Below are positions 2,189 to 5,815 of a stretch of DNA of 25,388 bases, in pieces; position 1 is the stretch's first letter; every line of letters begins with the position of its first letter. The translations under genes and the position numbers were made by a program. The notes below the pieces were generated by a model. The model worked only from the letters and a program-made list of their open reading frames with translations, was not told the DNA's origin and made no database searches. Source of the stretch: a virus; the IMG/VR virus record IMGVR_UViG_3300030430_003454, positions 1 through 25,388 of that record. One strand, 5' to 3'.

Positions 2189-2224
2189 AAAAAAAATACC
2201 TAGTGAGCCGAAACCCACTAGGTA
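2189..2224 (-). terminator. Strong rho-independent terminator, leftward
   Basis: TACCTAGTG (2197-2205) pairs perfectly with CACTAGGTA (2216-2224) around a 10-nt loop. On the minus strand the stem is followed by eight T (2196-2189). It ends the transcript of the gene starting at 2675. The -1 frame of that gene stops at 2230, only six bases before the stem, which supports translation reaching that far. Confidence 0.9.
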
Positions 2225-2229
2225 AATTA

Positions 2230-2675
2230 TTAGACACCATATACAAGTTCTGTATAGTAGGCATCTACGCAATAGGTACAGTCTGCAACGTTTGTAAAAT
2301 CACTACAGTATGTACAGTCATACTGCTCGATTACTTCTTGAGAAGTTCCTCCAATGTAGTCTTGTTGATTACTTGGAGTTGTTTCTTTGTAATCGAGCTT
2401 GACACTTTTCCCTTGTCAGATACCTTGATAGTAGCTTTTCCTTGCAGGAGCATGTTCTTGATTTTGTCGGGAGTACCTGAATTGTAGCAGGTTTCCCAAT
2501 CCACTAGGTCGTGGAACTTACCATCAAGAACATACGCTACGTTGTAGCGTCTTTTGAAATTGTCCTTTTCTAGTTGTCGTCTACGTGTGACTAACATTCC
2601 GTCTTGGAATTTAGTCGTTGTACCTACTTGGTGAGGTGTATACTCTACACCTTGTATTAGTTTATTACTAGGCAT
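2230..2675 (-). CDS. Predicted -1 frameshift fusion with C-terminal zinc ribbon, 148 aa
   Basis: The first 90 residues are shared with the short form. At G|GGA|AAA (2412-2406) the ribosome is predicted to slip back one base and read 58 further codons to a TAA at 2232-2230. The new tail starts SVKLDYKETTPSNQQDYIGG and carries CTYC and DCTYC, giving CxxC, eight residues, CxxC (fusion residues 121-136), a zinc-ribbon pattern. The -1 frame has no ATG, GTG or TTG between its upstream TGA (2418-2416) and the ribbon, so an independent start is unlikely. It is open only from three bases before the slip site. An assembly indel is the main alternative, but it would not explain the slip heptamer and the downstream stem. 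Confidence 0.7.
2325..2412 (-). promoter_or_regulatory. Programmed -1 frameshift signal
   Basis: Reading leftward: slippery heptamer GGGAAAA at 2412-2406, in the correct phase (X XXY YYZ). Then a 7-nt spacer GTGTCAA, then GCTCGATTAC (2398-2389) pairing perfectly with GTAATCGAGC (2334-2325) across a 54-nt loop. Inside the loop CTCCAA (2378-2373) pairs with TTGGAG (2354-2349). Directly downstream AGTATG/CATACT (2324-2307) forms another hairpin. The zero-frame stop lies in the 3' arm. Slip heptamer plus a stem 5-9 nt downstream is the standard -1 arrangement; lambda G-T uses the near-identical GGGAAAG. Confidence 0.75.
2331..2675 (-). CDS. Zero-frame product, 114 aa (frameshift gene, short form)
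   Basis: MPSNKLIQGVEYTPHQVGTT begins seven bases after an AAAGGA site. The protein is basic and of mixed secondary structure; the zero-frame end is a short helix (TTLEELLKK). I do not recognise the family. The gene stands alone, is read leftward out of the large non-coding region, and stops 107 bases before its terminator. That 3' space is open in the -1 frame and encodes a zinc ribbon (see the frameshift product). The short form would be the main product if frameshifting is partial. Confidence 0.75.
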   Translation of the reverse strand: MPSNKLIQGVEYTPHQVGTTTKFQDGMLVTRRRQLEKDNFKRRYNVAYVLDGKFHDLVDWETCYNSGTPDKIKNMLLQGKATIKVSDKGKVSSSITKKQLQVINKTTLEELLKK

Positions 2676-2695
2676 TAGCTAGTCCTTTCTGTTAT

Positions 2696-2740
2696 GTATG
2701 TACGTTGTGTACATACTTCGTACTCTTGTATGAAGTATGT
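2696..2740 (-). promoter_or_regulatory. Two mutually exclusive leader hairpins
   Basis: In the leader of the frameshift gene, ACATACTTCGTAC (2711-2723) pairs with GTATGAAGTATGT (2728-2740) as 13 bp with one G-T pair and a 4-nt loop. The overlapping GTATGTAC (2696-2703) pairs with GTACATAC (2709-2716) as a second 8-bp hairpin. They share 2711-2716, so only one can form. The proximal one ends close to the AAAGGA site at 2683-2688, so switching could control translation of the gene at 2675. Confidence 0.45.
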
Positions 2741-2763
2741 ATTACTTTATAGTTTAACTACAT

Positions 2764-4453: not shown

Positions 4454-4657
4454 GTGGCAAAAATAAAAAATAAACGTAATATATTTACTACACCACAAGA
4501 TTTGAAAGAATGGTCAATGGACCTTGCTGAAGCATGTGGTAGTATATTAATTAGTAAAAAACCAAATATCAGCAAGATTGATACACTGGTAGAAAAGTTT
4601 GTAAATGATTACAACATTAACATGGAGAGTTTAAATGCCACCAAAGAAGAAGAGTAG
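4454..4657 (+). CDS. 67-aa hypothetical protein, GTG start
   Basis: I placed the start at GTG 4454 (MAKIKNKRNIFTTPQDLKEW) because a full GGAGG stands six bases before it; a GTG further upstream at 4391 lies inside the hairpin stem and lacks a site. The protein is helical and basic at the N-terminus, acidic at the end (NATKEEE). The last 23 bases overlap the next gene. It is the first gene of the late operon. Its size and place before the terminase would suit a small-terminase-type or DNA-binding helper, but no motif supports that. Confidence 0.6.
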   Translation: MAKIKNKRNIFTTPQDLKEWSMDLAEACGSILISKKPNISKIDTLVEKFVNDYNINMESLNATKEEE

Positions 4658-4919
4658 TTCAAGGAAAAAACCTGCTAGAAAACCTATTAACGCCAAAACT
4701 AAAGCAACGCTTCAAAAAAAAGCTAAGAACTCTAAATATACGTACAGTCAGTTGGCGGCTGTATACAGGCGTGGACAGGGTGCTTATCTTTCTTCGGGAA
4801 GTAAATCAGCTTCTATGGCAGCTTGGGCTATGGGTAGAGTTAACTCTTTTATTAGGGGTGGTCATTCTCAAGATAATGATATAAAAAGAAGAGGCAAGTC
4901 ACGTGCGAAAAAGAAGTAG
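4635..4919 (+). CDS. Basic phage protein, DUF5824-like
   Basis: After a Lys-rich N-terminus (MPPKKKSSSRKKPARKP) comes YTYSQLAAVYRRGQGAYLSS and later AWAMGRVNSFIRGG, a combination I know from small proteins of cyanophages and pelagiphages described as DUF5824 (from memory). GGAGAG lies five bases before the ATG, which overlaps the upstream gene by 23 bases. The basic tail (GKSRAKKK) suggests nucleic-acid contact. The family's function is not established. Confidence 0.7.
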   Translation: MPPKKKSSSRKKPARKPINAKTKATLQKKAKNSKYTYSQLAAVYRRGQGAYLSSGSKSASMAAWAMGRVNSFIRGGHSQDNDIKRRGKSRAKKK

Positions 4920-5097
4920 AAGAAAAGTAAAATATGAAAAAGGAGTCCCGGCTAAATACCTTAAGAATAAAAAAAATTCAAAGGCTTCTGTTGCTCGTGA
5001 AATTAAAGCGACTTCAAAGGCTTATAAAGAAGGTAGGTACATAGATTTAAAAGCTGTACAGAAATCAAGAGCTACTAAGAAAAGGAGGCGTAAATGA
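4903..5097 (+). CDS. Tiny basic protein with GVPAKYL motif
   Basis: GTG at 4903 gives a 64-aa Lys/Arg-rich protein containing KGVPAKYLKNKK and AREIKATSKAYKEGRYIDL, a pattern I have seen in small phage proteins next to terminase genes. AGAGG lies about eight bases before the GTG. The start overlaps the previous gene by 17 bases and the stop overlaps the next start as ATGA. It is probably nucleic-acid binding by charge; no enzymatic motif. Confidence 0.65.
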   Translation: MRKRSRRKVKYEKGVPAKYLKNKKNSKASVAREIKATSKAYKEGRYIDLKAVQKSRATKKRRRK

Positions 5098-5267
5098 AAG
5101 TTAAAGGCGTGGATGCTAGTAAGTTGACTAAAAGACAACAAAATGCTTTGAAAAAACATTCTAAGCATCATTCCAAAAAACATATACAATATATGGTAAA
5201 CTCTATGAAACGTGGTTCTAGTTTTTCTAAATCACATAAAAACGCACAAAAGAAGGTAGGTACATAA
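5094..5267 (+). CDS. 57-aa basic His/Lys-rich protein
   Basis: The frame starts MKVKGVDASKLTKRQQNALK, followed by KHSKHHSKKHIQYMVNSMKR, and ends AQKKVGT. GGAGG lies six bases before the ATG, which overlaps the upstream stop as ATGA; its stop overlaps the next ATG as TAATG. The KHSxHHSxKH pattern resembles small conserved phage proteins found in the same neighbourhood in marine phages. Function unknown. Confidence 0.65.
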   Translation: MKVKGVDASKLTKRQQNALKKHSKHHSKKHIQYMVNSMKRGSSFSKSHKNAQKKVGT

Positions 5268-5401
5268 TGCCAAAAACTAATGGTCAATATTCTGAAGCTC
5301 AGAAAAAAATTGCAAGAGTTGCACCACCATTTGATAAAATAACAGGAGCTGATTTTAAAAAGCTACGTCAAAATGCTAAAAGAAAACCAAAGATGAGCTG
5401 A
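5267..5401 (+). CDS. 44-aa basic protein
   Basis: The product MPKTNGQYSEAQKKIARVAP continues with PFDKITGADFKKLRQNAK, a short motif (APP-x-DKITGADFKKLR) that I recognise from tiny cyanophage and pelagiphage proteins of unknown role. Start and stop both overlap neighbours (TAATG, TGATGA). A GAAGGTAGG-like site precedes the start. Confidence 0.65.
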   Translation: MPKTNGQYSEAQKKIARVAPPFDKITGADFKKLRQNAKRKPKMS

Positions 5402-5523
5402 TGACACAAGTAAGTTGGATGTGGGGTGGCAAAAGACATTACGGTACTCTTATTAGAGAAACCAAAACACATAAGTTTGCAAGAACAAAAAACGGCAAAA
5501 TAAAAAAAATTAAGAAGGTTTAG
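5401..5523 (+). CDS. 40-aa basic protein
   Basis: MTQVSWMWGGKRHYGTLIRE is followed by a Lys-rich tail (NGKIKKIKKV). The start overlaps the preceding stop, and the next gene starts one base after its stop. It is too short for domain assignment; the Trp/Gly start and basic tail are the only marks. Support comes from coupling and from its place in a row of similar genes. Confidence 0.55.
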   Translation: MTQVSWMWGGKRHYGTLIRETKTHKFARTKNGKIKKIKKV

Positions 5524-5524
5524 T

Positions 5525-5815
5525 ATGCCACACAACACTGCAAGAAAAAAAAATCTATTAAAAAAACACAACCTATCAGGAGTTAACAAACCTAAGAGAA
5601 CTCCTAAACATCCTACTAAATCACATATTGTTTTAGCACAAGAAGGTCATAAACTTAAATTAATTAGATTTGGACAACAAGGTGCAAAAACTGCAGGAAA
5701 AAAACAAGATGCAAGGTCTAAAGCAAAAAGAAAATCTTTTAAAGCTAGACATGCAAAAAATATTAGAAAAGGAAAAATGTCTGCTGCATACTGGGCTAAC
5801 AAAACTAAATGGTAG
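5525..5815 (+). CDS. 96-aa basic phage protein, conserved next to terminase
   Basis: Residues 47-70 include LIRFGQQGAKTAGKK and the C-terminus reads GKMSAAYWANKTKW. This arrangement (RFGQQG near the middle, SAxYWAxKxKW at the end) is one I know from small conserved proteins of marine T4-like and T7-like phages. It is highly basic throughout. AAGAAGG lies just before the start; the gene overlaps the terminase start by seven bases. Probably structural or nucleic-acid binding; not established. Confidence 0.7.
   Translation: MPHNTARKKNLLKKHNLSGVNKPKRTPKHPTKSHIVLAQEGHKLKLIRFGQQGAKTAGKKQDARSKAKRKSFKARHAKNIRKGKMSAAYWANKTKW

Follow-up and report, generated by a model that had tools for sequence, protein, structure and literature searches.

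Why does a small phage gene, pointing away from the terminase and virion genes, carry what looks like a complete signal for -1 ribosomal frameshifting? The gene lies in the window, by which we mean the whole stretch analysed: all 25,388 nucleotides, positions 1 to 25,388, of the IMG/VR virus record IMGVR_UViG_3300030430_003454. Its zero-frame ORF (2331..2675, minus strand) encodes 114 aa, of which residues 1-90 would be common to both products of a frameshift, and homologues occur in three lineages. The zero frame, read on the minus strand, is AAG GGA AAA GTG, which places the slippery heptamer G_GGA_AAA (2406..2412) in X_XXY_YYZ phase, with GGA as the P-site and AAA as the A-site codon. The heptamer is followed by the 7-nt spacer GTGTCAA (2399..2405) and by a putative stimulatory stem, the 5' arm of which, GCTCGATTAC (2389..2398), pairs perfectly across 10 bp with the 3' arm, GTAATCGAGC (2325..2334). 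The 3' arm contains the zero-frame stop UAA (2333-2331). A first-pass annotation of the window had described this in-phase heptamer, spacer and stem, all of which we confirmed in the sequence. It had also described a nested 6-bp hairpin. Folding places this hairpin, CTCCAA/TTGGAG, within the 54-nt loop (2335..2388) in the window; in the close relatives L001, L002 and L004 it is weakened or broken.

How unusual is this arrangement? The folding energy of the 89-nt segment is -25.3 kcal/mol, compared with -11.5 +/- 2.4 for dinucleotide shuffles (z -5.75), and 0 of 200 shuffles were as stable. On the two strands of the window there are 309 slippery heptamers, and a 10-bp Watson-Crick stem 5-9 nt downstream accompanies a single one, that of this cassette. 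The same heptamer is the only in-phase GGGAAAN among the 18 genes examined. An AAGG at 2423..2426 (minus strand), 10 nt 5' of the heptamer, is a possible, weak Shine-Dalgarno-like element. It takes the form AAGG, AAAGG or GGAG according to lineage and is lost in L003, and its energies (-3.4 to -6.4 kcal/mol) are not exceptional against background; a role in helping slippage is suggestive only.

The -1 frame is bounded as the first-pass annotation had it. Its last stop before the slip is the TGA at 2418-2416, one codon upstream of the heptamer. From the re-read A it runs for 58 codons (2233..2406, minus strand) to the TAA at 2232-2230, immediately after which comes an intrinsic terminator (2197..2224, minus strand); the gap is 5-6 bases because the terminator stem starts at about 2224. 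The tail lacks a start codon of its own and is absent from the window's ORF list.

A protein scan of viral contigs recovered five close relatives, 90-95% identical, which together with the window constitute lineage A. Distant relatives were identified by a terminase scan followed by tblastn on those loci, plus a profile scan. They comprise lineage B (L030 and L045), with bodies 43-44% identical, and lineage C (L038, L041, L040, L054 and the partial L039), with bodies about 36% identical, so that body identity between the three lineages is only 36-44%. The segments KRRYNV, TPD and GKV of the gene body are invariant across homologues. The cassette could be compared in 12 sequences, the window included. 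Beyond this phage group no homologues came to light, and the zero-frame protein has no relative in 50,697 phage records or in bacterial genomes. A wider terminase profile yielded no additional cassette lineages, and in L059 (terminase 51%) no homologue of the gene could be recognised within the 10 kb upstream. The additional sequences returned by a pattern scan with GGGAAAAGTCAAARGCTC (L063, L065, L066, L069, L073 and L074) were rejected as chance matches, having neither the gene nor a matching stem, and a tail pattern scan returned known members only.

Is the signal conserved across this divergence? The heptamer is invariant in 13 of 13 sequences that reach it, and all 12 that cover the cassette combine an in-phase GGGAAAA, a spacer of exactly 7 nt and a stem with 10 bp or more. 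The length of the spacer is constant while its letters vary (GTGTCAA, GTCAAAA or GTCAAAG), and the stem of lineage C has 12 pairs and one bulged C. The codon before GGA is Lys (AAG), Thr (ACG) or Ser (TCG) among relatives and ends in G throughout, as the heptamer requires. In the window's genes ACG accounts for 1.9% of Thr codons, TCG for 1.9% of Ser codons and AAG for 11% of Lys codons.

Between lineages, both partners of a pair change at stem positions 5 (G-C to U-A), 6 (A-U to C-G) and 8 (U-A to A-U or G-U), while positions 7 and 9 change to G-U. In the alignment of lineages A and B, 100% of stem cells are paired, compared with 16-41% in slid versions; the covariation score for these two lineages alone was reached by 29 of 500 shuffles. 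The RNAalifold consensus of the automatic three-lineage alignment contains 4 pairs only, because MAFFT did not place the bulged base of lineage C. Since automatic alignment misplaces this bulge, pairing across all three lineages was counted on arms placed by hand, and with only three independent lineages the double changes represent few evolutionary events. The comparison of heptamer, spacer and compensatory stem changes that the first-pass annotation had proposed therefore came out in its favor across 12 sequences and three lineages. No homologue encodes the tail in frame with the body, and none retains the gene without the heptamer and stem; the annotation had named both outcomes as ones that would speak against its reading.

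Is the -1 frame translated? Past the zero-frame stop, the tails of the window and L030 differ with pS 0.87 and pN 0.19 in the -1 frame (binomial P 1.4e-4), and those of L038 and L001 with pS 0.93 and pN 0.31 (binomial P 3.5e-4). L030 and L045 give 0.29 and 0.07. In the two other frames of the same alignments the pS excess is much weaker or absent, and in the window and L003 tails alone synonymous changes are not in excess. Judged by these substitution patterns, purifying selection acts on the -1 frame, and on no other, beyond the zero-frame stop. Indels within the tail, of 6 and 3 bases, are multiples of three. The test for such selection had been proposed for 2331-2406, where the frames overlap. 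There, changes are mostly non-synonymous in both frames and neither frame is clearly constrained, and therefore the overlap adds no evidence; the selection is seen in the tail beyond 2331.

Taken together, programmed -1 frameshifting that yields two proteins from one start, as the annotation had proposed, is very probable, because the signal with its heptamer and fixed spacer is conserved, the stem shows compensatory changes, the -1 tail is selected, and there is neither an in-frame tail nor a usual start codon for it. Most ribosomes would continue in the zero frame to the stop in or beyond the stem, producing the body with a short helical end (114 aa). Some would pause at the stem while the P site is occupied by GGA and the A site by AAA, whereupon both tRNAs, stimulated by the 3' stem, would re-pair simultaneously one base back, on GGG and AAA. 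Reading on in the -1 frame would give a predicted fusion of 90 + 58 = 148 aa, in which 58 residues replace the final 24 of the 114-aa form, with a Cys-rich module at the end.

Could the tail instead be a separate small gene, reached by re-initiation or coupling from a non-standard start, with the stem acting as a coupling or other RNA element? The zero-frame stop does fall within the 3' arm of the stem in lineages A and C, but in lineage B it is far downstream of the stem. Candidate starts are also available, as ATT and ATC codons are present in the -1 frame and L002 and L003 have -1-frame TTG codons upstream of the heptamer; from the slip to the distal tail, however, none of the 12 sequences contains an ATG, GTG or TTG in that frame. 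A separate gene would moreover leave the invariant in-phase heptamer, the wobble G and the fixed 7-nt spacer unexplained, and we regard it as improbable.

An origin in the RNA rather than at the ribosome is still less probable. Transcriptional slippage at GGGAAAA, producing mRNAs with indels that fuse the two frames, would be expected to yield a comparable fusion. For a slipping polymerase, however, 3 G and 4 A are short runs, and the ribosome is the better fit for an RNA stem that is conserved, covaries and keeps a constant distance of 7 nt. Nor is an artifact or gene decay a likely account of the locus: the window is a single metagenome-derived contig, in which one might suspect a gene in decay or an indel introduced by sequencing or assembly, yet the same architecture recurs in all other gene-bearing contigs, from several metagenomes, and the tail is under purifying selection, so that either is scarcely credible. 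On the preferred reading of programmed frameshifting, the purpose would most likely be to set a fixed ratio between the short and the tailed form of a small regulatory or nucleic-acid-associated protein.

What does the frameshift add? Tails are of two types. Type 1 (DCTYCxDFTNVADCTYC, with the spacing CX2C-X8-CX2C) is found in the window, L002, L003, L030 and L045; the 34-aa distal tail of the window, DCTYCSDFTNVADCTYC, is of this type and is conserved to lineage B. Type 2 (SSDxHxLD...C...), with a different Cys/His pattern, is found in L001, L004, L006 and lineage C. Bodies of lineage A that are 90-95% identical carry either type, and the window and L001, with bodies 94% identical, have tails of different type. 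Conversely, between lineages A and B the type 1 tails align with a score of 147 (z 19), though the bodies are 44% identical, and the type 2 tail of L001 resembles lineage C (z 7), compared with z 0.5 for the window's type 1 tail. The segment that differs between the types measures about 90-100 bp and lies between the stem and the common terminator. Because near-identical bodies carry either type, it looks as if the tail is an interaction module that can be exchanged, and we infer that this frameshift-encoded module has recombined between phages. Rapid divergence of distantly related tails is the weaker alternative, in favor of which the two types within lineage A retain some mutual similarity (z about 6). 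A fuller picture, which we find plausible and put forward tentatively, is of a non-virion regulator that receives its C-terminal interaction module through -1 frameshifting only, with cassettes exchanged behind the stem such that one slippery platform would serve alternative tails.

The tail had been described as a zinc ribbon. Its two CX2C pairs do occur in type 1, and in type 1 only; type 2 differs, and all matches of the tail to Pfam, including the curated zinc-ribbon families, were below cut-off. The structure model of the tail (pLDDT 46) is unusable, and zinc binding is a guess. For the zero-frame protein, the best of five AlphaFold models is of fair quality (pLDDT 81.5, pTM 0.70; the other four 60-68) and has four strands followed by helices. 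Foldseek returned no match to it at E <= 0.001, and a second structural comparison gave a maximum Z of 3.4; similarity to the PUR-alpha fold appeared in several rows and, at Z 2-3, was too weak to use. Family searches found no match above chance in PHROGs, the tail assembly chaperone families included, and nothing above cut-off in Pfam; Rfam gave no hit at gathering thresholds. From the basic KRRYNV segment and the Cys-rich tail, a nucleic-acid-linked regulator is the likeliest guess, albeit a doubtful one.

The gene forms its own transcription unit and heads the leftward, non-virion block, which diverges from the genes for the terminase and the virion. Its counterpart in the 41-kb relative G002 likewise belongs to a leftward block that runs against the virion genes; the other members there include small unknown genes and one whose product weakly resembles Rad52-type annealing proteins, just under the curated cut-off. 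Early expression is guessed from gene position only. Known phages of 'Ca. Actinomarina' have 33.6-36.5% GC (PMC7771536). The window's GC of about 34%, a terminase resembling those of Streptomyces phages (25%) and a capsid protein resembling those of Mycobacterium and Propionibacterium phages (26-29%) would fit a host among the marine actinobacteria, such as 'Ca. Actinomarina', a weak inference. The phages form a family that is uncultured and probably marine.

How does the cassette compare with known systems? The lambda-type tail assembly chaperone G/GT also slips by -1 at a near-identical heptamer, G_GGA_AAG, and also gives a C-terminally extended isoform; here, in contrast, the gene is a 114-aa non-tail gene in its own transcription unit with a strong conserved 3' stem. 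It does not lie between the major tail and tape-measure genes, where tail chaperones are placed, and no sequence similarity to the lambda-type G/GT system was found. The E. coli dnaX and IS-element cassettes share the X_XXY_YYZ heptamer and 3' stem, and perhaps the weak upstream Shine-Dalgarno-like element, but these are host or transposon genes, and the dnaX slip truncates its product rather than extending it. In gene 10A/10B of T7 and T3 and in A2-type capsids, frameshifting likewise adds an optional, evolutionarily mobile C-terminal domain (PMC5009743); those are virion proteins, whereas the present gene is leftward, opposite the virion genes.

Known phage frameshifts are mostly in G/GT chaperones, capsid or tail proteins (PMC5009743), and in the PRFect survey the joined genes of 2476 genomes were counted as 2397 tail chaperones and 79 hypotheticals (PMC10885494). 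In genes like the present one such signals have seldom been seen. Frameshift fusions in small non-virion genes have also been suggested: among the joined CDSs of the T7 record (NC_001604) are 'possible gene 0.6B' and 'possible gene 5.5-5.7', gene 0.6 being in the early region and both being annotated only as 'possible', and cro of phage A2 frameshifts in E. coli (PMC5009743). The first-pass annotation had judged a frameshift that adds a zinc ribbon in an isolated early-type gene to be apparently new. Because non-virion cases were already proposed in T7 and A2 cro, the mechanism itself is not new. The novelty lies in the gene family, in how strongly comparison supports frameshifting in a non-virion gene, and in the tails that appear to be exchanged. 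The locus provides good comparative evidence, from covariation and frame-specific selection, for programmed -1 frameshifting in a small phage gene that belongs to neither the head nor the tail genes and whose protein family had not been described. This suggests that non-virion regions of phages hide frameshift isoforms that gene callers miss, and that frameshift-encoded protein ends may be swappable as modules.

Several further elements were observed at the locus. The leader (2676..2742, minus strand) contains the hairpin GTATGTAC/GTACATAC and an overlapping hairpin, followed by the Shine-Dalgarno sequence AGAAAGGA. These are two overlapping inverted repeats, CATACTTC/GAAGTATG and GTATGTAC/GTACATAC, at (-)2742-2690, which have GTATG in common and end just 5' of the Shine-Dalgarno sequence. 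The GTATGTAC/GTACATAC repeat is kept in all three lineages, and the pair is possibly an operator or leader switch. Within the ORF, a second hairpin at (-)2550-2534, ACGCTAC-AAC-GTAGCGT, reads ACGATAC-AAT-GTATCGT in L001-L004, a compensatory change that uses the rare Ser codon TCG; lineage C has a different hairpin there, and the element may act at the RNA level or as an operator. Immediately 3' of the frameshift stem, lineage A members with type 1 tails have the hairpin CAGTATG/CATACTG (window (-)2326-2305), whose place is taken by AGAGT/ACTCT in type 2 relatives. Farther along the window, between the small genes and the terminase, positions 4635-5815 contain a run of five or six short ORFs whose products are very basic and Lys/Arg-rich.
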